Source: Acidobacteriota bacterium (lineage in GTDB: Bacteria > Acidobacteriota > Blastocatellia > Pyrinomonadales > Pyrinomonadaceae). From it: a stretch of DNA of 64,000 bases. Positions 5,756 to 18,856 of the stretch are shown piece by piece. The first letter of the stretch is position 1. Every line of letters begins with the position of its first letter. The stretch spans positions 1 to 64,000 of the forward strand of contig JAIVJI010000063.1 in NCBI GenBank assembly GCA_020200135.1. The letters run 5' to 3'. The notes under the pieces were generated by a model. That model ran no database searches, had not been told where the DNA came from, and worked only from the letters and a program-made list of their open reading frames with translations. The translations under genes and the position numbers were made by a program.

Positions 5756-8056
5756 ATGATCGAACGCGTCCAGATTACAGTGCGGGGGGTCGTGCAGGGC
5801 GTCGGGTTCCGCCCCTTCGTCTACGCGCTGGCCGTCCGGCGGTCGCTCCACGGCAGGGTGCTTAACACCGCCGGCGGCGTTCTCATCGACGTCGAAGGCG
5901 CGCCCGATACGTTGGAACAGTTCGAAAGCGAAATAAGCTCCTACCCGCCGCCGCTGGCGAGAATCGATTCGGTTAGCAGCAGAGGGGGCTTTGCCCTGGC
6001 GCGGTACACCGACTTCCGCATCGTCGAGAGCGACACGGGCGGTGAGTCGCTCGTACCCGTCCCGCCCGATGTCGCCACGTGCGCGGACTGTCTGAGGGAG
6101 TTGTTCGACCCGGGCGACCGGCGTCACCGCTACCCCTTCATTAACTGCACCAACTGCGGCCCGCGCTTCACCATCGTCGAGGCCACGCCTTACGACCGCG
6201 CGCGGACGACGATGCGCGACTTCGGGGTGTGCGAGGCGTGTAGGGCTGAGTACGAGAACCCGCTCGACCGCCGCTTCCACGCCGAGCCGAACGCCTGCCC
6301 GACCTGCGGCCCCCGGCTCACGCTCGCGGACGCCGACGGCCGCCCCGTCAGTCCGGGCAGCAAGCCCGGCGACGATGTGGTCAGCCGGGCGCGGGAACTG
6401 CTCTCGCGCGGCGCCATCATCGCCGTCAAAGGCGTCGGCGGGTTCCACCTGGCCTGTGACGCGCTGAACGCCGAAGCGGTCGGGCGGCTGCGTGGAAGGA
6501 AGCACAGGGAGGACAAGCCTTTCGCCCTGATGGCCTCCTCCGTCGAGACGGTTAAAGAATACTGTCTGGTTTCCGAAGCAGAGAGTCGCCTGCTGCTGTC
6601 CGGCGCGCGCCCCGTCGTGCTTCTCGAAAGAAAGGCCGGCGCGACGCTTCCCGCGGCCGTCGCCCCGCGCGTGGGCACACTCGGCTTCATGCTCCCCTAC
6701 GCGCCGCCGCACCACCTGCTGCTGGAGGGCTCAGACCGCCCGCTGGTCTTCACGAGCGGCAACGTCTCGGACGAGCCGATCTGCTACGAAGACGAAGAGG
6801 CCGTGCTGCGTCTGCGCGGCATCGCCGACTACTTTCTGCTCCACGACCGGCGCATACACGTCCGCGCCGACGACTCGGTCACGCGCCTGGTCGAAGGCCG
6901 CGAGACGGTCGTGCGTCGCTCGCGAGGGTATGCCCCCGCGCCCCTGCACGTGGCCTTCGAGTTCGGCCGGCAGATTCTCGCCTGCGGGGCGGAATTGAAG
7001 AACACTTTCTGCCTCGCGAGGGGCCGCCAAGCCTACGTCAGTCACCACGTCGGCGACCTGGAAAACCTCGAAACCTTCCGCTCGTACGAGCGGGGTATCG
7101 AGCACTACCGGCGGCTCTTCGACCTTCACCCGGAGGCGGTCGCACACGACCTGCACCCGGAATACCTCTCGACGAAGTATGCCCGTGCGATAGACGAAAG
7201 CCTCCTCAAGATCGGCGTCCAGCACCACCACGCGCACGTCGCGAGCTGCATGGCCGATAACGACATCGAAGGCGAGGTCATCGGCGTGGCGATGGACGGG
7301 CTCGGCTTCGGCGCGGACGGCCGCATGTGGGGCGGAGAGTTCTTCGTCGCCGACTTCGCCGAGGCGGAGCGCGTCGCGCACCTCGACTACGTCCCGATGC
7401 CCGGCGGCGCGAAGGCCGTCCGCGAGCCCTGGCGCATGGCCGCCGTCTACCTGAGCCGCGCGCTCGGAGAAGACTTCCTGAACTCGGGCCTGCCGTTCGT
7501 CAGGAGCATGGACGCGCGCGCCTGGGCGACGCTCAGCCGCATGGCCACGACCGGCACCAACAGTCCCGAGACTTCGAGCATGGGCCGGCTCTTCGACGCC
7601 GTGTCGAGCCTGCTCGGCCTGCGCGGCGTGGCCAACTACGAGGGGCAGGCGGCAGTCGAGCTGGAGACCATCGCCGACCGGAGCCACGGCGAAAGATATG
7701 AGTTTGAGCTTGCGGGAAACGGCGGTATCATCAAAGCAGAGCCGGTAATTATACGGGCGGCGGAAGACGTGCTGGCCGGCGTCGCCCCGGAAGTCATTTC
7801 CGCCAGGTTCCACCTCGCCGTGGCGCACCTGATCGCCGCGGTCGCCCGACGAATCGGGGACGAGCGAAAGCTCGACCGCGTCGTCCTGTCCGGGGGAGTG
7901 TTCCAGAACGTGTTTTTACTCCGGCACGCCGGCCGGCTTCTGAAGTCCTCGGGCTTAAAGGTCTACACGCACGGCCGCGTGCCTACGAACGACGGCGGCA
8001 TCTCGCTCGGGCAGGCGGCCGTCGCCAACGCGCTCATCCTGCGGGGGAAAGTCTGA
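5756..8056 (+). CDS. hypF: carbamoyltransferase HypF
   Basis: The 766-residue protein makes the thiocarboxamide on HypE that becomes the CN ligands of the NiFe site. Domains in order are: acylphosphatase-like (residues 1-90, VRGVVQGVGFRPFVYALA); two zinc-finger motifs, CADC...CTNCG and CEAC...CPTCG (about 105-185); a YrdC/Sua5-like nucleotide-binding domain (about 200-385, with KGVGGFHLACDA); and a Kae1-like carbamoyl-transfer domain with the metal motif HHHAHVASCM and the late SGGVFQN. Length is normal for HypF. It opens the plus-strand maturation unit hypF-hypC-SIS-hypD-hypE; hypC follows after 4 bp. Confidence 0.97.
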   Translation: MIERVQITVRGVVQGVGFRPFVYALAVRRSLHGRVLNTAGGVLIDVEGAPDTLEQFESEISSYPPPLARIDSVSSRGGFALARYTDFRIVESDTGGESLVPVPPDVATCADCLRELFDPGDRRHRYPFINCTNCGPRFTIVEATPYDRARTTMRDFGVCEACRAEYENPLDRRFHAEPNACPTCGPRLTLADADGRPVSPGSKPGDDVVSRARELLSRGAIIAVKGVGGFHLACDALNAEAVGRLRGRKHREDKPFALMASSVETVKEYCLVSEAESRLLLSGARPVVLLERKAGATLPAAVAPRVGTLGFMLPYAPPHHLLLEGSDRPLVFTSGNVSDEPICYEDEEAVLRLRGIADYFLLHDRRIHVRADDSVTRLVEGRETVVRRSRGYAPAPLHVAFEFGRQILACGAELKNTFCLARGRQAYVSHHVGDLENLETFRSYERGIEHYRRLFDLHPEAVAHDLHPEYLSTKYARAIDESLLKIGVQHHHAHVASCMADNDIEGEVIGVAMDGLGFGADGRMWGGEFFVADFAEAERVAHLDYVPMPGGAKAVREPWRMAAVYLSRALGEDFLNSGLPFVRSMDARAWATLSRMATTGTNSPETSSMGRLFDAVSSLLGLRGVANYEGQAAVELETIADRSHGERYEFELAGNGGIIKAEPVIIRAAEDVLAGVAPEVISARFHLAVAHLIAAVARRIGDERKLDRVVLSGGVFQNVFLLRHAGRLLKSSGLKVYTHGRVPTNDGGISLGQAAVANALILRGKV

Positions 8057-8060
8057 ACGC

Positions 8061-8327
8061 ATGTGTCTCGCGATACCCGGTAAGGTCGTCGAAATCGTCG
8101 ACGCGGAGAACCACATCGCCAAGGCCGACGTGGGCGGCGTGAGGCGCAACGTCAACATAGGCATGTTTGACGAAGGCGAGGTCACCGTCGGGGACTACGT
8201 CCTGATCCACGTCGGCTTCGCGATGAGCAAGATCGACGAGCACGAAGCCGAAGAGACGCTCCGCGTGCTCAAAGAAATCGGCGAGTACGAGCCGGAGGTC
8301 GAGCAGTTCAAGACGACCCTGCAATAA
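8061..8327 (+). CDS. hypC: hydrogenase maturation chaperone HypC
   Basis: The 88-residue protein begins MCLAIPGKV, the invariant HypC start in which Cys2 holds the iron site while CN and CO ligands are assembled with HypD. A conserved HVGFAMSKIDEHEAEET segment completes the family pattern. It shuttles the Fe(CN)2CO unit to the large-subunit precursor. The gene is tightly packed after hypF. Confidence 0.96.
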   Translation: MCLAIPGKVVEIVDAENHIAKADVGGVRRNVNIGMFDEGEVTVGDYVLIHVGFAMSKIDEHEAEETLRVLKEIGEYEPEVEQFKTTLQ

Positions 8328-8342
8328 CTATTGTCTACCGCG

Positions 8343-9101
8343 ATGGCCAACTCCGCCGACGACTTTTCGCGCTCCTTCTACCCGTTCCTGCACGGGGACG
8401 AGGCCGAGTCGCAGGCAGGAATCTCCGACGCGTCGGCGCGGGAGGGGGCTCCTCCGGGTCTGTTGGAAGGTTTGCGGTTCTCGCTGGTGGAGAAGGCGCG
8501 AGAGAGCGCGGAGGTCAAGGCCAAATTCTTTGAGGAGAATAAGGACGCGATTCTCGCCGCCTCCTTCGACATGGCAGGGGCATTCCGGCGGGGCCGCAAG
8601 ATGCTCGTCTGCGGCAACGGCGGGTCGGCGACCGACGCGCAGCACGTCGCCGTAGAGTTCATGCACCCCCTCACGGTCGGGCGCAGGGCACTGCCCGCCG
8701 TCTGCCTCTCGAACGACATGGCGATGGTCACCGCGGTCGCCAACGACGTCGGCTTCGACGACGTGTACACGCGGCAGGTCATCGCGCTCGGGGCCGAGGG
8801 CGACGTCCTGCTCGGCATCTCGACCAGCGGGAACTCCGAAAACATTTTGCACGCCTTCGCGACCGCGCGGCGGATGAAGCTCCTCACAGTGGGATTGGCC
8901 GGGGGCGACGGGGGCCGGATGGCGGCGATGCGCTCCGAGGGGCTTATAGATCACTGCCTCACGGTTTCGACTTCGAGCATCCACCGGGTACAGGAGACGC
9001 ACGTCACCCTCTACCACGTCATGTGGGACATGGTGCACACCTTCCTCCAACACGGGGCGACGGCCGGGGCGACGGGCGGCGAAAAGGACAAGCATCCGTA
9101 A
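8343..9101 (+). CDS. SIS-domain protein, phosphoheptose-isomerase (GmhA) like
   Basis: The protein of about 252 residues has a SIS fold close to GmhA/DiaA: VCGNGGSATDAQH, a middle LSNDMAMVTAVANDVGFDDVYTRQV, GISTSGNSENI and a C-terminal QETHVTLYHVMWDMVH. GmhA isomerises sedoheptulose-7-phosphate, but nothing else for heptose synthesis is nearby. Its place between hypC and hypD, with its stop overlapping the hypD ATG (TAATG), points to a job linked to hydrogenase maturation that I cannot name. An in-frame TTG at 8331 is an alternative start; neither has a clear Shine-Dalgarno. The first 55 residues or so are an N-terminal extension. Confidence 0.85.
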   Translation: MANSADDFSRSFYPFLHGDEAESQAGISDASAREGAPPGLLEGLRFSLVEKARESAEVKAKFFEENKDAILAASFDMAGAFRRGRKMLVCGNGGSATDAQHVAVEFMHPLTVGRRALPAVCLSNDMAMVTAVANDVGFDDVYTRQVIALGAEGDVLLGISTSGNSENILHAFATARRMKLLTVGLAGGDGGRMAAMRSEGLIDHCLTVSTSSIHRVQETHVTLYHVMWDMVHTFLQHGATAGATGGEKDKHP

Positions 9102-10213
9102 TGAGATTCATCGACGAATACCGGCGAGGCGACGTCGCGCAGAAGCTGGCCGAGCAGATAGCACGCCTGACGGCGCGGCCGCTCAAGATCATGGAGGTGT
9201 GCGGCGGGCACACGCACGCCATCTTCAAGTACGGCATCGAGGACCTGCTGCCCGAACAGATCACGATGATCCACGGACCGGGCTGCCCGGTCTGCGTCAT
9301 CCCGCTGGGCCGCGTCGACGACTCCATCTCCATCGCGCTGCGCCCGGGCGTCATCTTCACCACTTTCGGCGACATGATGAGGGTTCCCGGCTCCCGCACG
9401 AACCTGCTCGACGCGAAGGCCGTGGGCGCGGACGTGCGGATGGTCTACTCGCCGCTCGACGCCCTGAAGATTGCGAAGAACAACCCCGGCCGCGAGGTCG
9501 TCTTTCTCGCCCTCGGCTTCGAGACGACCGCGCCCTCGACGGCAATGACCGTCCTCCAGGCGGCCAGGGACGGCGTCAAAAACTTCAGCGTCTTCTGCAA
9601 CCACATCACCATCGTGCCGGCCTTGAAGGCCATGCTCGATTCGCCTGACTTACAACTCGACGGCTTCATTGGCCCCGGCCACGTCAGCACGGTCATCGGC
9701 ACGCGGCCCTACGAGTTCGTCGCGCGCGAGTACGGCAAGCCCGTCGCCGTCTCCGGCTTCGAGCCGCTCGACGTGTTGCAGTCCGTCTACATGGTCGTCA
9801 GGCAGGCCACGGAAGGGCGCGCCGAGGTCGAGAATCAGTACGGGCGCTGTGTGAGCAGGGACGGCAACCGGAAGGCGCTGGAGGCCATATTCGAGGTCTT
9901 CGAGCCGCGCGAGTATTTCGAGTGGCGCGGCCTCGGCTCCATCGCGCACAGCGGGATGAGGCTGAAGTCGAAGTACGCCGCCTTCGACGCCGAATTGAAG
10001 TTCGAGGTGCCGGGACTGCGCGTGGCCGACCCGAAGGCGTGCCAGTGCGGCGAGATCCTCAAGGGCGTGAAGAAGCCCTGGGAGTGTAAGGTCTTCGGAA
10101 CGGCCTGCACGCCGGAGACGCCCATCGGCTCCTGCATGGTTTCCTCGGAGGGCGCCTGCGCCGCCTACTACAACTACGGGCGGCTCTCGAAGATAGTCGA
10201 GCGCTCGGCGTGA
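9101..10213 (+). CDS. hypD: hydrogenase iron-ligand assembly protein HypD
   Basis: The 370-residue Fe-S protein acts with HypC and HypE as scaffold for Fe(CN)2CO synthesis. Diagnostic motifs are present in order: CGGHTHAIFKYG (about residue 34), GPGCPVCV (about 66), GFETTAPST, and the C-terminal cysteine cluster CQCGEILKG...CKVFGTACTPETPIGSCMVSSEGAC, which carries the 4Fe-4S and redox cysteines. The start at 9101 overlaps the stop of the SIS gene, so the pair is probably coupled. The open frame begins earlier (9023), but similarity starts at MRFIDEYRRGD. Confidence 0.96.
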   Translation: MRFIDEYRRGDVAQKLAEQIARLTARPLKIMEVCGGHTHAIFKYGIEDLLPEQITMIHGPGCPVCVIPLGRVDDSISIALRPGVIFTTFGDMMRVPGSRTNLLDAKAVGADVRMVYSPLDALKIAKNNPGREVVFLALGFETTAPSTAMTVLQAARDGVKNFSVFCNHITIVPALKAMLDSPDLQLDGFIGPGHVSTVIGTRPYEFVAREYGKPVAVSGFEPLDVLQSVYMVVRQATEGRAEVENQYGRCVSRDGNRKALEAIFEVFEPREYFEWRGLGSIAHSGMRLKSKYAAFDAELKFEVPGLRVADPKACQCGEILKGVKKPWECKVFGTACTPETPIGSCMVSSEGACAAYYNYGRLSKIVERSA

Positions 10214-10259
10214 TTTTGCGAAAAGGTCGCCGGAAGACCGGGGCCCCCGTCAAAGAATA

Positions 10260-11387
10260 ATGGCCGAACCGTTTACTCCCAGCCCGCTGTTTCAAAGGGT
10301 GGAGCGGGCGCGGAGAAGAAAACCGCACGTCAGGGACACGCACATCACGCTCGCGCACGGCAGCGGCGGCCGTGCCATGCACGACCTGGTCGAGGGTCTG
10401 TTCCTCGAATACCTGAAAAGCCCCCTCCAAGAGCAGCTTGAGGACCAAGCCGTCTTCGAGATCGTCCGCCAAGACTACGAAGGATACTCGGACAGTCCCC
10501 TGCGGCTGGCCTTCACCACTGACTCCTACGTGGTTGACCCCATCTTCTTTCCCGGCGGCGACATCGGCCGCCTCGCCGTCTGCGGCACGGTCAACGACCT
10601 GGCGATGGGCGGCGCGCGGCCGCTCTACCTCTCCGCCGGCTTCATTCTGGAAGAAGGGTTCCCCGTCGAAGACCTCCGCCGCGTACTCACCTCCATGCGC
10701 GACGCCGCGGACGAGGCGGGCGTCCACGTCGTCACGGGAGACACCAAGGTCGTCCAGAGGGGCGGCGCGGACAAAATTTTCATCAACACGTCCGGCGTCG
10801 GAGTCGTCGGGTCGGGCGTGCTCATCTCCTCAACCCGCGCGGAGGTTGGGGACAAAATCATCCTGAGCGGCACCGCCGGCGACCACGGCACGACCATCAT
10901 GATCGCGCGCGGCGAGTTGGAGCTTGAGACCGAGATAGAGAGCGACACCGCGCCGCTCAACTCTTTAGTCCGGGAGATGCTGGAAGCGGCAGGGCGCGCC
11001 GGCGGCGCCTCCGACATCCACTGCCTGCGCGACCCCACGCGCGGCGGGGTCGCGACGACCCTCAACGAGATCGCCCTCGGCTCGGAAGTCTGCATCGAGA
11101 TTCTGGAAGACCGAGTCCCGGTGCGCGAGGAGGTGAAGGGCGCGTGCGAGATTCTGGGCCTCGACCCGCTCTACGTCGCCAACGAGGGGAAGCTGCTGGC
11201 GGTGGTTTCGCCGGGCGTGGCGGACGCCGTCGTCGCGCGGATGAGAGAGAACCCTTACGGGCGCGACGCCTGCGTCATCGGCGAGGTGCGGGCCGAGCCG
11301 CAGGGCATCGTCGCCATGCGTACCGGCTTCGGCGGCACGCGCATCGTCGACATGCTCGTCGGCGAGCAGTTGCCACGGATATGTTGA
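10260..11387 (+). CDS. hypE: hydrogenase cyanide-synthesis protein HypE
   Basis: The 375-residue protein of the PurM/SelD-like ATPase family dehydrates the carbamoyl group received from HypF on its C-terminal cysteine to thiocyanate. The protein ends in PRIC, so the essential terminal Cys375 is present. Other motifs are ITLAHGSGGRAMHDLV, FTTDSYVVDPIFFPGGDIGRLAVCGTVNDLAMGGA and DPTRGGVATTLNEIA. The N-terminus is about 25 residues longer than usual, so a downstream start is possible. It is the last gene of the hypFCDE unit and is followed by a strong terminator. Confidence 0.95.
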   Translation: MAEPFTPSPLFQRVERARRRKPHVRDTHITLAHGSGGRAMHDLVEGLFLEYLKSPLQEQLEDQAVFEIVRQDYEGYSDSPLRLAFTTDSYVVDPIFFPGGDIGRLAVCGTVNDLAMGGARPLYLSAGFILEEGFPVEDLRRVLTSMRDAADEAGVHVVTGDTKVVQRGGADKIFINTSGVGVVGSGVLISSTRAEVGDKIILSGTAGDHGTTIMIARGELELETEIESDTAPLNSLVREMLEAAGRAGGASDIHCLRDPTRGGVATTLNEIALGSEVCIEILEDRVPVREEVKGACEILGLDPLYVANEGKLLAVVSPGVADAVVARMRENPYGRDACVIGEVRAEPQGIVAMRTGFGGTRIVDMLVGEQLPRIC

Positions 11388-11618: not shown

Positions 11619-12416
11619 ATGAAGATTGCCATCAGCGGCAAAGGCGGTTCCGGTAAAACTACCATCTCGGCGACCCTCACGCGCCTCATCGCACGCCGCG
11701 GCCTGTCGGTGCTCGCCATCGACGGCGACCCCAACCCCAATCTCATCCAGGCGCTCGGCCTCGGCCCGGGCGTGGAGGCGGAGGCCGTCCCGCGCAGCGT
11801 CGTCGAGCGCCGCGAGGACGAGGCCGGCAAGACCCGCCACGTTCTCACCTCGTCCGTCTCCGAAATCGTCGGCCGCTACGGGCTGAAAGCGCCCGACGGC
11901 GTGACGGTGCTGGTCGGCACCAAAGTAGACCACGCGGGCGCGGGTTGACTCTGCGGCGCTCACGCTGCCGTGCGCAGCATCGTCGGCGAGATCGTGAACA
12001 GTTCGGACGGCGTCACCGTGATGGACATGGAAGCCTCCATCGAGCACCTGAGCCGGGGCACGCTCAGGTACGTGGACGCCCTGCTCGTGGTGCTGGAGCC
12101 CTACTACCGCTCGATGGAGACGGCCGGCCGCACGGTGCCGCTCGCGCGCGGCCTCGGGATAGAGCGCATCTACGGCGTCGCCAACAAACTGCGGAGTCCC
12201 GAGGACGCCGAGGCCGTCGAGGCGTACTGCCGCAACCACGATTTAGAACTCATCGCCAGAATCCCGTTCGACGAGAACGTGGTCGAGGCCGACCGGGTAG
12301 GCCGCGCGGTCATCGATTACGACGCGGCCTCTCCGATCGTCGAAGAGTTGTCGCGCGCGGCCGATTTCCTGCTGCGCGAAGTCCGAGTCGGAGGCAACGG
12401 CGCCGGGAGGAATTGA
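11619..12416 (+). CDS. CooC-like P-loop ATPase with in-frame TGA at CxC motif (candidate selenoprotein)
   Basis: Read through the TGA at 11946-11948, the frame encodes a 265-residue MinD/CooC-type ATPase. It has a deviant Walker A GKGGSGKTT (residues 7-15), the IDGDPNPNL switch, TKVDHAGAG-(TGA)-LCGAHAAVR, Walker-B-like VTVMDMEA, and a C-terminal half open to 12416 in the same frame. CooC-type proteins carry a CxC pair in this position that binds metal; here the first Cys codon (TGC/TGT) is TGA and the second Cys (112) is intact. Such ATPases insert nickel into CODH, and hypA/hypB are missing here, so nickel delivery to the hydrogenase is a reasonable inference. A good GGAGGAG Shine-Dalgarno lies at 11604-11610. 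Alternatives are a nonsense mutation, which would give a 109-residue product, or a sequencing error. Confidence 0.75.
11951..11977 (+). promoter_or_regulatory. hairpin just downstream of the in-frame TGA (possible bacterial SECIS)
   Basis: Starting 2 nt after the TGA, CTGCG (11951-11955) can pair with CGCAG (11973-11977). A bulged upper stem has G-C pairs around a UCAC tetraloop. An alternative fold pairs 11953-11957 with 11964-11968. Bacterial SECIS hairpins lie in this position, but GC-rich DNA forms hairpins easily, so function is unproven. Confidence 0.3.
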
Positions 12417-12417
12417 G

Positions 12418-12726
12418 ATGCTCGACAACATGGACACCATGACGCTCTGGACCTACTCGCTCATCGCCGGCGCGGTGGTGATCGTGATCGTCGCCGTCCT
12501 GCTGATCATGCTCATCGCCGCCGCGAACCGCGTGAACAAGAGCGCGAGCAACATCTGGGACGCCGGAAAGCAGATCGCGGGCAACACCGTCTCGATCTGG
12601 ATGCTGAACGTGACCAACCGAGTCGCGGGGCAGATACTCGAAGGGGCGCAGTCCATCGACGCGCGGGCGGCCGCCATCGACGAGAAGATCACGGCGCTGG
12701 CGGGGGCGCTCGGGCCAAAGGGGTGA
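12418..12726 (+). CDS. small single-helix membrane protein (A-type)
   Basis: The 102-residue protein has one long hydrophobic helix at about residues 12-35, then a polar helical tail rich in Ala, Asn and acidic residues. The tail segment around TNRVAGQILEGAQSIDA matches TKGVAGRILGAAAAIEG in the third protein of this group, so the two are paralogues. I recognise no named family. It follows the CooC-like gene with a 1-bp gap and a GGGAGG Shine-Dalgarno. It is the first of four small membrane proteins between the ATPase and the hydrogenase subunits; membrane tethering or a quinone-side partner is inference. Confidence 0.85.
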   Translation: MLDNMDTMTLWTYSLIAGAVVIVIVAVLLIMLIAAANRVNKSASNIWDAGKQIAGNTVSIWMLNVTNRVAGQILEGAQSIDARAAAIDEKITALAGALGPKG

Positions 12727-12729
12727 GCG

Positions 12730-13032
12730 ATGCGCCTGTTAACCTGGCTGACAGTCATCTACCTCGTGGTGCTGGTGCTGGCGCTGGCCGCCAGCCTGAT
12801 TACGATTTTTGTCTACCTCTGGCGCATCGGCAGCGCGCTCGCCCTGGTCGAGGGCGCGCTCGGGCAGGCCGAGAGAAACACCGCGCCGCTCAAGGGCCAC
12901 GTCGAGGCCATCAACGGCGGGCTCACGAGCGTCGGCGAGGGACTGACGGCGGTGGACGCGCACCTGGCGTCGGCGGACATGAGCCTGGGTGCAGTCGCCA
13001 AGCGCCTCGGCATCGGCGAGACCGTCGGCTGA
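12730..13032 (+). CDS. small single-helix membrane protein (B-type)
   Basis: The 100-residue protein has an N-terminal hydrophobic helix (about residues 5-32) and a polar amphipathic tail. The tail motif around INGGLTSVGEGLTAVDAHL matches LNGGLTALAGGLESVAGHF in the fourth protein, so these two form the second paralogous pair. There is no metal motif and no cysteine, so it is not itself an electron carrier. It starts 3 bp after the preceding stop and is probably co-translated. The function is unknown; see the A-B-A'-B' finding. Confidence 0.85.
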   Translation: MRLLTWLTVIYLVVLVLALAASLITIFVYLWRIGSALALVEGALGQAERNTAPLKGHVEAINGGLTSVGEGLTAVDAHLASADMSLGAVAKRLGIGETVG

Positions 13033-13059
13033 GTTTGTGCGCGGGGAGGGAGGTGTCGT

Positions 13060-13353
13060 ATGGAGACCACAATCATCGTCGTCTGGTCGTTGGCGCTCGT
13101 CGTGGCGCTCGTCCTGACGCTCGTCATACTCAAGCTGGTCTTTCTGATCGTGCAGACCGAGCGGGACATACTCCGGCTCGCGCACATCACGCTCCGCGCC
13201 GCGCGCGGCATCGAGTCCAACACCGCCCTGATCTCGAAGCTCGAAACGACCAAAGGCGTGGCCGGTAGGATTCTGGGCGCCGCCGCCGCCATCGAGGGGG
13301 GCACGTCGTCCGTCGAGAAGAAGCTGCGCGCCGTCTGGCAGGCGCTCGCTTAA
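13060..13353 (+). CDS. small single-helix membrane protein (A'-type)
   Basis: The 97-residue protein has one N-terminal hydrophobic helix (about residues 5-31) and a charged tail. Its tail is paralogous to the first protein of the group (GVAGRILGAAAAIEGG...SVEKKL against RVAGQILEGAQSIDAR...AIDEKI). A very strong GGGAGGGAGG Shine-Dalgarno precedes the ATG. There are no cysteines or haem-type histidine pairs. The function is unknown. Confidence 0.85.
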   Translation: METTIIVVWSLALVVALVLTLVILKLVFLIVQTERDILRLAHITLRAARGIESNTALISKLETTKGVAGRILGAAAAIEGGTSSVEKKLRAVWQALA

Positions 13354-13366
13354 AGGGGGCCGGGGG

Positions 13367-13657
13367 ATGGAACTGTTATTGACCATACTGACCGCGCTGG
13401 CGGGCGCCGTCCTGCTCGTCGCGCTCGTCGTCTCCCTCTTTCTCATCCTGAGGACGCTCCAGTCCGTGAGGAAGTACATCGAGAAGATCAACTGGGGCGT
13501 TCGCGCGATTGAGAAGGAGACGGAGATGCTCGGCGGGGTGGAAACGCTCAACGGGGGCCTGACTGCTTTGGCAGGCGGGCTGGAGTCCGTCGCCGGGCAT
13601 TTCGCTAACATCGACAGTAACGTGGGCACCGTCGGTGAGGCGTTACTCCAGAGGTGA
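13367..13657 (+). CDS. small single-helix membrane protein (B'-type)
   Basis: The 96-residue protein has an N-terminal hydrophobic helix (about residues 5-29) and a tail with regularly spaced Gly/Leu (LNGGLTALAGGLESVAG). It is paralogous to the second protein of the group. It lies immediately upstream of the hydrogenase small subunit (22-bp gap). With the three preceding genes it appears to come from duplication of a two-gene unit. The function is unknown. Confidence 0.85.
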   Translation: MELLLTILTALAGAVLLVALVVSLFLILRTLQSVRKYIEKINWGVRAIEKETEMLGGVETLNGGLTALAGGLESVAGHFANIDSNVGTVGEALLQR

Positions 13658-13679: not shown

Positions 13680-15068
13680 ATGATGGGCGAGATTCCCGAG
13701 AAACACGTCGGCCAAGCCGGCAGCCATGAGCAGCGCGCCTCCTCGACCGCGGGGCTGCCGGACCAGGTGGGCAACGTCGCGCGCCGGACGATGGAGGAAC
13801 TGGCCGAAGACATCGTCGCCTCGCAGGGCAAGAGCAAGTTCAGTCTCGGGCCGCTTGAGAAGGTGTACGTCTTCTGGCTCGCGGGGATGAGCTGCGACGG
13901 GTGCACCGTCTCGGTGAGCGGCGCGACCGAGCCGGCACTGGAAGATTTGCTGACCGGCTCGATTCCCGGCGTGCCGCTCGTCGTGCTGCACCACTACGTC
14001 CTCCAGCTCGAATCGGGCGACCACTACATCCAGACGCTCGTCAACGCCGAGCAGGGCAAACTCGACGGCCCGTACGTCCTCGTCTACGAGGGCTCCATCC
14101 CGGACGAGAACCTTTCGGCCGGGGGCGAGCCGTTCGCGGGCGAGGGGTCGCTCCCGCTCTGGGCCGGGAGCACGGAGCGTAGGCGCGTCTCGACCGCCGA
14201 ATGGATGAAGCGGCTCGGGCCGGGCGCGGCGGCGTCCATCGCCATCGGGACGTGCGCGACGTGGGGCGGCATCCCCGCCGCCTACGGCAACATCACCGGC
14301 TCGATGAGCCTGATGGACTGGATGGGCAAGGATTACCGCTCGGCTTTGGGCCTCCCCGTCATCAACATCCCGGGGTGCGCCCCCGTGGGCGATAACTTCA
14401 CCGACGCCGTGCAGGCGATTCTCCTCTTCCTGCAAGGTCTAGGCCCGCTCCCCGAGTTCGACGAGCTGGGACGTCCCGCGTGGCAGTTCTCGGAGACGGT
14501 TCACACGCACTGCGTGCGCGCGGGCTTCTACGAGGAGGGGACTTTCGCGCGGGAGTACGGCGACAAGGAATGCCTCGTCGAGATCGGCTGCTGGGGGCCG
14601 GTCGTGCAGTGCAACATCACGGAGAAGGGCGCCATCGCGCACATGGGCGGGTGCATGAACTCGGGCGCGCCCTGCATCGGCTGCACGATGCCGGGCTTCC
14701 CCGACAAGTTCTCGCCATTCTACAAGGCCCCGCCCGGCTCGCTCCTGTCGAGCAACGCCTCGCGCCTGCTCGGCTCGGTCGTGCGCAACCTGCGCCGCAT
14801 CAGCCAGCGCGAGCGCAACCGCGAAATCCGCTGGCACGACTCGGTGCCTTCGGGGTGGGCGATGGAGAAGGGTGGCACCTCGATCACGCACAAGATTCTC
14901 GAAGTCTTCTACGAGGCGTTACAGTTCCAGGGCGCGAAACGCCCCGAGCGAGACCCGCAGAAGAAGTTTCCGGCCGGGTACCGGAGCCTCCCGGAGCGCG
15001 TCTACGGCGACCAGGACTATCAGGTGCTGCCCGAGGACCGGGCGAAGAAGGCCGAGAAGAGAGCCTAA
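13680..15068 (+). CDS. hhyS: [NiFe]-hydrogenase small subunit, group 1h
   Basis: The 462-residue electron-transfer subunit carries three Fe-S clusters. The proximal-cluster region has CDGC (residues 72-75), GTCATWGG and GCAPVG. The medial and distal region has HTHC, CLVEIGCWGPVVQC, and GGCMNSGAPCIGC. The C-x-G-C motif with Asp in second position is typical of the oxygen-insensitive actinobacterial-type enzymes, where an Asp ligand of the proximal cluster has been reported. There is no Tat signal peptide and no C-terminal anchor helix; a disordered N-terminus of about 55 residues precedes the flavodoxin-like domain. It therefore stays cytoplasmic or peripheral. A strong AAGGGGAG Shine-Dalgarno supports ATG 13680; ATG 13683 is equally possible. 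Confidence 0.95.
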   Translation: MMGEIPEKHVGQAGSHEQRASSTAGLPDQVGNVARRTMEELAEDIVASQGKSKFSLGPLEKVYVFWLAGMSCDGCTVSVSGATEPALEDLLTGSIPGVPLVVLHHYVLQLESGDHYIQTLVNAEQGKLDGPYVLVYEGSIPDENLSAGGEPFAGEGSLPLWAGSTERRRVSTAEWMKRLGPGAAASIAIGTCATWGGIPAAYGNITGSMSLMDWMGKDYRSALGLPVINIPGCAPVGDNFTDAVQAILLFLQGLGPLPEFDELGRPAWQFSETVHTHCVRAGFYEEGTFAREYGDKECLVEIGCWGPVVQCNITEKGAIAHMGGCMNSGAPCIGCTMPGFPDKFSPFYKAPPGSLLSSNASRLLGSVVRNLRRISQRERNREIRWHDSVPSGWAMEKGGTSITHKILEVFYEALQFQGAKRPERDPQKKFPAGYRSLPERVYGDQDYQVLPEDRAKKAEKRA

Positions 15069-17007: not shown

Positions 17008-17499
17008 ATGATGGTCTTAGTTTCGGGCATCGGCTATTCGAACCAGAGCGACCTCTCCTTCGGCCGCGTGCTGTACGGGCAGATGGCCGAGATGAGTTGG
17101 CCCGAACACGTCCACGTCGAAGACCTGAACTTCGGCCCCATCATGATCTACCAGTGGCTCGAAGAGTCTCCAGTCAAATACGACAGGATGGTGCTGGTCG
17201 GCGCCGCCGACCGCGGGCGGGAGCCGGGGACGCTTGAGGTCTACACCTGGGACGGGGTGTTGCCGGACGCGGCCGGAGTACAGAGGTGCGTCGAGGAGGC
17301 GATCACCGGGGTCATCAGCATGGAGAACCTTCTGGTCGTCTGCAAGCACTTCGGCGTCCTCCCCGAAGACGTGACGATCATCGAGATCGAGCCACAGAAG
17401 GAGGACTTCGGCCTCGAGTTCAGCCCTGCCGTGGCCGCCAGGGCCGGGGAAGCCATCGAACTCGTCAGGGCCGAAGTGATGAAGGCCGAACGCCGATGA
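17008..17499 (+). CDS. M52-family hydrogenase protease homologue lacking nickel ligands
   Basis: The 163-residue protein aligns along its length with hydrogenase maturation proteases: GIGYSNQSDLSFG corresponds to GVGNVLRGDDGFG, LVGAADRG to LADAVERDG, and GVLPEDVTIIEIEPQ to the C-terminal strand. The three nickel ligands of the active protease in this cluster (Asp16, Asp63, His100) correspond here to Leu16, Gly65 and about Gly101. It is therefore probably not a peptidase; a chaperone or scaffold role for the large subunit is a reasonable inference. It lies directly after hhyL, and its stop overlaps the next start (ATGA). Confidence 0.8.
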   Translation: MMVLVSGIGYSNQSDLSFGRVLYGQMAEMSWPEHVHVEDLNFGPIMIYQWLEESPVKYDRMVLVGAADRGREPGTLEVYTWDGVLPDAAGVQRCVEEAITGVISMENLLVVCKHFGVLPEDVTIIEIEPQKEDFGLEFSPAVAARAGEAIELVRAEVMKAERR

Positions 17500-18434
17500 G
17501 TGAAGTGCAGGCCAAGGACGGTGACGCGGAGGAACTGCTCGGGCGGTTGGGCGCGCTCGCGGAGGAACTAGAACAGTACCCGGACGAGGAAGTGCGCGAG
17601 AAGGCGCTCGACCTCCTACAGATCATCCTCAAACTTCACGGCGAGGCGCTGCGCCGCACGCTGGCGACTTTCGAGTCGCTGCCGATGAAAAGCGAGATAT
17701 ACTCGCGGATGCTGGCCGACGAGTTCATCCGAGCCATCCTGACCGTTCACGACCTCCTGCCGGAAGGGCTGGAGACGAGGGTGGCTAAGGCGGTAGAAGA
17801 GATTCGCCCCTTTCTGATCTCGCAGGGCTGCGACGTGAAACTGGTCGGCGTGGAGGGGGGGCGGGCACGCATGCGTTTGATGCGCAGCGGCAGCGGCGCC
17901 CCGCCGGTTGCGGCGCTCAAACTGGAAATCGAAAAGGTGCTCGACGTGGCCGCGCCCGACCTCCTCGGCATAGACATCGAGGGCTTGGCCCAACAGGTCG
18001 AAGCGACCGCGAGGGCCGCGGAGATGCTGGGCGCGCTGATTACGCCCGCGCGCGGCGAGGCGCAGCAGCCCGCCCGGCTGGTGCAGATTAAAAGACCGAG
18101 GCCCGACCCGGCCGGGGCGGCGGGCCCGTGGGTCTCGGTCGTGCGCGCCCTGGTGTTCGAGGACGGGCAGCTCGAGGTCATCGACTACGCCGGGATCAAC
18201 GTGCTGGTCTGCAAACTCGACGGCGAGTTCTACGCCTACCGCAACGCATGCGCGGCCGAGCCCGCGCGACAGCTCGACGACGCGCGGTACGACCCGCCGT
18301 TGCTCACCTGCGCCTGTCACGGGTACGGTTACGACCTCGGTCGCGGGGGCGCATGCGCTGGAAGACCCGAGCTGCGGCTTGAGTCCCTGCCGTCGAAGGT
18401 CGAAGACGATAAGGTGAAGGTAGCTCTCTCTTAG
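17496..18434 (+). CDS. NifU-like/Rieske-type fusion protein of hydrogenase operon
   Basis: The 312-residue soluble protein has three parts. Residues 1-90 are helical. Residues about 93-170 resemble the NifU C-terminal domain (RPFLISQGCDVKLVGVEGGRARMRL), but the usual CxxC is replaced by SGSG. Residues about 212-312 are Rieske-like. The Rieske motif is altered: Cys252 is present but the His two residues later is Ala254, whereas the second half Cys272-x-x-His275 is intact and an extra Cys274 is present. A Rieske-type protein (HucE) occurs with the Mycobacterium Huc hydrogenase, so an electron-transfer or cluster-delivery role is likely. It overlaps the previous gene by 4 bp. Confidence 0.85.
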   Translation: MSEVQAKDGDAEELLGRLGALAEELEQYPDEEVREKALDLLQIILKLHGEALRRTLATFESLPMKSEIYSRMLADEFIRAILTVHDLLPEGLETRVAKAVEEIRPFLISQGCDVKLVGVEGGRARMRLMRSGSGAPPVAALKLEIEKVLDVAAPDLLGIDIEGLAQQVEATARAAEMLGALITPARGEAQQPARLVQIKRPRPDPAGAAGPWVSVVRALVFEDGQLEVIDYAGINVLVCKLDGEFYAYRNACAAEPARQLDDARYDPPLLTCACHGYGYDLGRGGACAGRPELRLESLPSKVEDDKVKVALS

Positions 18435-18445
18435 GGTGGTGTTTT

Positions 18446-18856
18446 ATGGCGGAGCGGGAACGAGACGAGGCGGACGACGGGGTCGGCGGCGTCTACTGGC
18501 GCGACGAAATCTTGCAGGTGATGTACTGGATGGCGGGTGAGGGGTTCGGCCAGGAGTTCACCCCTTCAGACCTGCGGAAGTTCATCAGCGCCGGCGACGA
18601 CGTGCTGGAAGAGAACCTTGGGCGGATGGTGGGCACCGGGCTGCTCGAACGGACAGGCGGCGGCAGATATGCGCTGACGGCCGAGGGAAAGAGGGAGGGC
18701 GGGCGGCGGTTCGCCGACGAGTTCGAGGAGATGCTCAAGCCCGGCCACTTCGAGTGCGACGAGCCGGACTGCGATTGCCACGACCCGAACTCCATCGAGG
18801 CGGTGTGTAAACATTTTTCGCCCGCGCACGAGCCGCAGCCGAACTCGGTGAATTGA
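18446..18856 (+). CDS. winged-helix protein with C-terminal Cys cluster
   Basis: The 136-residue protein has a winged-helix-like domain at about residues 20-95 (FTPSDLRKFI, then GRMVGTGLLERTGGGRYALTAEGKREG). The tail contains Cys104, Cys109, Cys111, His112 and Cys121 (CDEPDCDCHDP), which could bind zinc or an Fe-S cluster. It lies 11 bp after the NifU/Rieske gene in the hydrogenase operon, so it may be a local regulator or an assembly factor that senses metal or redox state. I do not recognise a named family. Confidence 0.8.
   Translation: MAERERDEADDGVGGVYWRDEILQVMYWMAGEGFGQEFTPSDLRKFISAGDDVLEENLGRMVGTGLLERTGGGRYALTAEGKREGGRRFADEFEEMLKPGHFECDEPDCDCHDPNSIEAVCKHFSPAHEPQPNSVN

Follow-up and report, generated by a model that had tools for sequence, protein, structure and literature searches.

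We examined four small genes in a 64,000-nucleotide stretch of DNA (hereafter, "the window") from a member of the Acidobacteriota, family Pyrinomonadaceae (GenBank assembly GCA_020200135.1, contig JAIVJI010000063.1, positions 1 to 64,000). The genes stand in a row between a gene for a CooC-type ATPase and those for a [NiFe]-hydrogenase. An earlier note had described their products as membrane proteins with one N-terminal transmembrane (TM) helix and a polar tail each, encoded in the order A-B-A'-B', and had proposed that they form a new module that tethers the hydrogenase to the membrane or gives it access to quinone. As related below, they belong with the HylTM1-5 proteins reported for group 1l [NiFe]-hydrogenase clusters (PMC9561532). 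The four genes are:

12418-12726, + strand: A1, bitopic membrane protein, 102 residues; orthologous to the HylTM2 position (p2) of five-gene arrays
12730-13032, + strand: B1, bitopic membrane protein, 100 residues; B-type (HylTM3/5-like), with a heptad coiled-coil tail
13060-13353, + strand: A2, bitopic membrane protein, 97 residues; orthologous to the HylTM4 position (p4)
13367-13657, + strand: B2, bitopic membrane protein, 96 residues; B-type, closest to HylTM3

The translations bear out the topology and the alternating order: each protein has a single, strongly hydrophobic 19-residue stretch near its N terminus (mean Kyte-Doolittle hydropathy 2.9-3.5), followed by a polar tail. The tail motifs cited in the earlier note are also present, NRVAGQIL in A1 and KGVAGRIL in A2 for the one type, and NGGLTSV..GL..V..H and NGGLTAL..GL..V..H for the other. 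When only the tails were compared (Smith-Waterman scores against 1000 shuffles), A1 and A2 scored at z 9.6 and B1 and B2 at z 12.7, each with p 0.001, and a whole-genome search with A1 retrieved A2 (E 2.4e-6). The cross-pair A2-B2 likewise scored above the shuffles (z 6.1), and profiles of the A and B tails aligned over 64 columns in hhalign with a probability of 94% (P 1.3e-7). From this profile match and the A2-B2 score we conclude that the four proteins constitute one family with two paralogous branches, A and B. Orthologues with 69-87% identity occur in identical order in related Acidobacteriota loci; because of this colinearity, we regard all four open reading frames as real genes.

Several features of these proteins point to long, amphipathic helices. 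In the AlphaFold2 models, A1 is one unbroken helix from residue 4 to 98 (mean pLDDT, the model's per-residue confidence score, 91), and B2 is one from residue 2 to 95 (mean pLDDT 89). Hydrophobicity in the tails recurs with a period of 3.4 residues in A and 3.5 in B (p < 0.0005 vs. column shuffles), and the a/d pattern of the B profile covers nearly the full tail. Of the two sides of the TM helix, the C-terminal one carries the more positive net charge in 91% of A proteins and 66% of B proteins and the N-terminal one in 3% and 9%, respectively; this bias indicates that the tail is probably cytosolic. A Foldseek search with the A1 model returned zero matches, as expected for a lone helix. Membership in DUF948 (PF06103) was considered and rejected: B2 matches that family over helix and tail (E 2e-5) with only 25.1 bits, vs. 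a gathering score of 37.2, and A1, A2 and B1 have no match to it.

Downstream of the array lie the hydrogenase genes and several accessory genes, and the hyp maturation genes are found upstream:

13680-15068, + strand: [NiFe]-hydrogenase small subunit, HylS-like (Pfam/NCBIfam); no Tat (twin-arginine translocation) motif and no TM helix
15095-16966, + strand: [NiFe]-hydrogenase large subunit, HylL-like and not group 1h (Pfam/NCBIfam, identities and tree)
17008-17499, + strand: hydrogenase maturation protease of the HycI/HyaD type (TIGR00072 above cut-off)
17496-18434, + strand: NifU-like plus Rieske-like protein, a possible electron-relay partner (PF00355 above cut-off, PF01106 slightly below)
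18446-18856, + strand: small conserved cysteine-rich protein (CDEPDCDCHD), function unassigned; homologues in most hyl loci
9101-11387, + strand: hypD and hypE maturation genes (translations)
5756-8056 and 8061-8327, farther upstream of hypD/hypE: hypF and hypC, respectively (translations)

The four hyp names are those that we take to apply from established knowledge of these families. The earlier note had assigned the enzyme to group 1h, a label that does not hold. The window large subunit shares about 40% identity with the references of group 1h; its best match in the PDB is 5AA5, and its best plasmid matches are the enzymes of Cupriavidus necator H16 and of Streptomyces plasmids. By comparison, its identity to the enzymes of loci sampled beyond its own clade of Acidobacteriota is 57-68%; these include the enzymes of Chloroflexota, Gemmatimonadota, Bacteroidota (among them Hymenobacter roseosalivarius, which we take to be the type organism of group 1l), Actinobacteriota, Armatimonadota, SAR324 and others. 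In a large-subunit tree, the window and the sampled loci form one clade, and the four group 1h sequences stand apart on long branches (support 100). On the identities and this separation, we reject group 1h for the window enzyme. The gene order typical of 1h clusters (small subunit, large subunit, NifU, DUF5947, DUF6084) is present in the four 1h loci of our sample (L092-L095) and absent from the window. Many loci of the window's clade are instead arranged as small subunit, five TM genes and large subunit, which is the published layout of group 1l (PMC9561532). Because the window large subunit falls in a clade with loci of this layout, we provisionally call the enzyme group 1l-like by tree and gene layout. 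The earlier note was correct in describing the hydrogenase as lacking a Tat signal and an anchor helix: none of 74 small subunits carries either.

To place the array, a locus sample was assembled that comprised 80 loci, the window and the four 1h loci; it was chosen with patterns derived from the window, and many of its members are metagenome bins. A profile search of this sample turned up 316 members of the family, spread over 75 loci; 35 of these have five members, 29 four and the others fewer. Most members adjoin the small- and large-subunit genes or sit between them. The loci without members in this search were either truncated by contig ends or were the four group 1h loci. Since iterated profiles merge the two branches, A and B were assigned from a tree. 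In this tree of 257 proteins, the clades track array position, and a single profile family covers the arrays of both the window and H. roseosalivarius (L087). Five-gene arrays read A-A-B-A-B and four-gene arrays A-B-A-B; a two-gene A-B form is found between the subunit genes in two loci (L025 and L042). The window genes cluster, in order, with HylTM2, a B type, HylTM4 and a B type, so that the window array resembles the five-gene set minus HylTM1. By profile and tree, then, the four window proteins are the four-gene form of the HylTM family, and the module is not new, as the earlier note had supposed, but had already been described for group 1l (PMC9561532). Its idea of a duplicated A-B unit fares better in part: an ancient two-gene unit is upheld, but the duplication was not local, for the copies cluster with the matching array positions of other phyla.

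The resemblance to HylTM1-5 as reported (PMC9561532) is accompanied by differences. The window proteins are likewise short with one predicted TM helix, and the H. roseosalivarius array is homologous to theirs; however, the window and its relatives have four genes rather than five, with no counterpart of HylTM1, and the window array stands before the small-subunit gene rather than between the small- and large-subunit genes. The order array, small subunit, large subunit occurs in 17 four-gene loci, and small subunit, array, large subunit in 11. Clusters of group 1m also contain small TM proteins and a CooC-type ATPase (PMC9561532); there, two small single-TM proteins are reported beside adjacent small- and large-subunit genes, a layout similar to those of the window and of three actinobacterial loci (L108, L109 and L113). 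These three are second, 1m-like hydrogenase loci in which TM genes flank the enzyme genes; in contrast to the two TM proteins reported for the group, L108 and L109 have five, split three and two.

The array keeps close company with its enzyme. In whole-genome scans of 34 genomes with hyl loci, essentially all matches lay within the hyl array, the scans having been made with the A profile, which B-only arrays could escape. The exceptions were four genomes of Actinobacteriota with extra arrays and one genome with a single additional weak match. Among 396 Acidobacteriota genomes, the array occurred only in the window's own genome, with two weak stray matches elsewhere, and 17 other Acidobacteriota genomes that encode related hydrogenases (41-47% identity) had no array. 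The earlier note's association of these proteins with a hydrogenase devoid of Tat signal and anchor is supported, and the linkage is strict at the hyl loci.

The extra arrays in the four Actinobacteriota genomes led to a second enzyme. One of them, in a member of the Solirubrobacteraceae, precedes an operon for carbon monoxide dehydrogenase (CODH), the large subunit of which scores above the cut-off of TIGR02416. Array matches were present in 36 of 146 Solirubrobacteraceae genomes, amounting to 42 arrays. Sixteen of these lie no more than 12 kb upstream of a form I coxL on the same strand, and six more adjoin coxM, coxS or coxL on short contigs, giving 22 genomes with CODH-linked arrays. The remainder, by our count, comprise about 13 located by 1l/1m-like hydrogenases or accessory genes and seven with neither, mostly at contig ends. 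Mostly, five array genes abut coxM, and in several loci the last of them overlaps the coxM start. The active-site motif of CoxL is AYRCSFR in 12 of the 13 proteins checked and AYACSFR in the remaining one. Several loci hold a second copy of coxL (63-66% identity) without an array directly ahead of it. In about 20 genomes (L112/L114, L115-L129 and L133-L137), the genes of the CODH-linked arrays keep the order seen at hydrogenase loci and lead straight into form I coxMSL. Ahead of some Solirubrobacteraceae arrays (L112:8033-9677, L124, L125, L131), relatives of about 250-350 residues with extended coiled-coil repeats are encoded.

Position by position, these arrays match those of the hydrogenases. 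For nine CODH arrays, the nearest reference for each protein at positions 1-4 was the matching position of a hydrogenase array (36/36). Position 5 groups with another B type. Proteins of both enzyme classes are united in the clade of position 1, with a support of 0.90. Judged by these placements, the CODH-linked proteins are positional orthologues of the hydrogenase-array proteins. The colinear, orthologous five-gene arrays upstream of coxMSL are new here; paralogy, positional orthology and the CODH link do not figure in the HylTM accounts that we compared, to which this claim of novelty is confined. Of the 16 genomes first linked to CODH, seven have no related hydrogenase, which renders a role restricted to hydrogenases unlikely. 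The earlier note had held that homologues mainly away from hydrogenases would refute its proposal. That is partly what was found, as many Solirubrobacteraceae arrays adjoin CODH; the finding widens the proposed role but does not overturn it.

What might such arrays do? We consider it reasonably probable that the four window proteins make up a hetero-oligomeric HylTM membrane module, a coiled-coil stalk that docks the hydrogenase and gives it access to quinone. Each protein would be one long alpha-helix, its N-terminal part spanning the membrane and its 60-65-residue tail extending into the cytosol as an amphipathic, heptad-patterned helix. We infer that the tails of the different gene products bundle into a membrane-anchored stalk; the fixed set of four or five anchored heptad helices is what suggests a hetero-oligomer, and the assembly of this kind envisaged in the earlier note remains likely. 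The stalk would dock the soluble, cytosolic hydrogenase to the membrane and open the quinone pool to it; the role of tether and quinone access is retained as our best guess. A precedent is HucM, which forms a coiled-coil tube to the membrane, hydrophobic inside, and is the proposed carrier of menaquinone to the group 2a hydrogenase Huc of Mycobacterium (PMC10017518). Like the window proteins, HucM is small, is encoded upstream of the small subunit and links a cytosolic hydrogenase to the membrane through an amphipathic coiled-coil helix; unlike them, it is the product of one gene and a homotetramer peripheral to the membrane. The stalk would act as HucM does, but with four or five different anchored chains where HucM has a single peripheral chain in four copies. 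No sequence homology between the two was found, in agreement with the earlier note: profile searches of PDB chains gave designed and natural coiled coils, and HucM was not among the matches listed.

In the Solirubrobacteraceae, the same module has been joined to form I CODH with its gene order kept. This points to an adaptor of general use, one that would connect trace-gas oxidases of the cytosol with the respiratory membrane. That HylTM arrays are a portable, hetero-oligomeric, anchored coiled-coil stalk adaptor, giving quinone access to unrelated trace-gas oxidases ([NiFe]-hydrogenases and Mo-CO dehydrogenases alike), seems to us an even proposition. Several observations weigh against these views. 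A lone, long predicted helix tells little about assembly. A coiled-coil profile may also pick up coiled coils of no relation, although the 396 genomes yielded just the two weak strays. The CODH linkage was found in one bacterial family only, and the linked genomes thus count as few independent events. CoxG, itself a membrane-linked partner of CODH, is retained in 15 of the 16 CODH-array genomes, a result that led us to reject the notion of the array as a replacement for CoxG. At least two arrays (L110:8385-10008 and L139:8862-10244) have neither enzyme nearby. Finally, membrane association has been reported to matter for affinity in group 1h, with the partner unknown (PMC7174314); these enzymes are reported to be membrane-associated, yet the four 1h loci lack array proteins.

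Other explanations of the array were weighed. It could serve solely as an anchor, with the NifU/Rieske protein or some other partner transferring the electrons. Anchoring alone would account for the linkage to two enzyme types, and the window shares with many other hyl loci a gene for a Rieske-like protein; however, none was named among the CODH-locus genes examined, and a simple anchor would not need four or five different chains conserved as a strict set. We hold this explanation to be unlikely. Somewhat more doubtful is a membrane-bound platform for assembly or maturation, acting outside the working enzyme in metal-cluster insertion or in joining the two subunits. The array does have the CooC ATPase, hyp genes and the gene for the maturation protease as neighbors. 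Nevertheless, its colinear orthologues accompany CODH, the cofactor of which comes from a different pathway, and the array is missing from group 1h, where the maturation genes are similar. An element common to two unrelated cytosolic trace-gas enzymes that feed the respiratory chain is not likely to function in hydrogenase maturation.

It is quite improbable, in our estimation, that the array proteins are redox subunits that pass electrons to quinone via cofactors of their own. A C-x2-C-x2-C motif is present at the HylTM2 position in 25 of the 35 five-gene loci, which would favor such a role; but the window array lacks it, as do nearly all other positions, the A and B consensus sequences have no conserved cysteine, and the recurrent histidine of the B type is not invariant. 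A redox function through conserved cysteines was rejected because the motif is confined to the HylTM2 position of five-gene arrays. There (e.g., L087:6790-7125), the motif takes the form of a C-terminal C-P-x-C-P-x-C, a possible metal or Fe-S site that four-gene arrays nearly lack.

Cytosolic high-affinity hydrogenases and CODHs take up trace H2 and CO from the atmosphere, and in very few of these enzymes is it understood how the electrons reach the membrane. A module linked to both enzyme types makes this question testable in one system, and it offers a genomic marker of membrane-coupled trace-gas oxidation.

The array-bearing loci L110 and L139 mentioned above have as neighbors clpX/trigger factor and uvrA. 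Directly upstream of the window array, the ATPase gene has a peculiarity not mentioned in the earlier note, an in-frame TGA in place of the first cysteine codon of the C-x-C motif:

11619-12416, + strand: CooC/MinD-type nickel ATPase, candidate selenoprotein; in-frame UGA at 11946-11948, with U-L-C replacing C-x-C
11961-11981, + strand: candidate bacterial SECIS (selenocysteine insertion sequence) hairpin, directly downstream of the UGA

Among 51 homologues, the codon at this site is TGA in 27, TGC in 17 and TGT in seven; TAA and TAG do not occur there. A pseudogene or a sequencing error was rejected as the source of the TGA, inasmuch as 27 loci share a TGA at this very codon and 24 have a cysteine codon there. 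CooC was absent from a 2022 catalogue of prokaryotic selenoproteins, and a keyword search of a 2026 review found none. The window genome encodes SelA and SelB (both above cut-off) and a tRNA-Sec with anticodon TCA. The hairpin lies 15-35 bases past the first base of the TGA and shows covariation among the UGA sequences, one of its pairs being A-T in 12 and G-C in 11 of 26. It is not retained in the cysteine set, where on average 4.4 of 8 pairs can form, vs. 6.7 of 8 in the UGA set. On this evidence from codons and predicted RNA pairing, the CooC-type ATPase is a strong and apparently uncatalogued selenoprotein candidate, probably a new selenoprotein family in nickel insertion.
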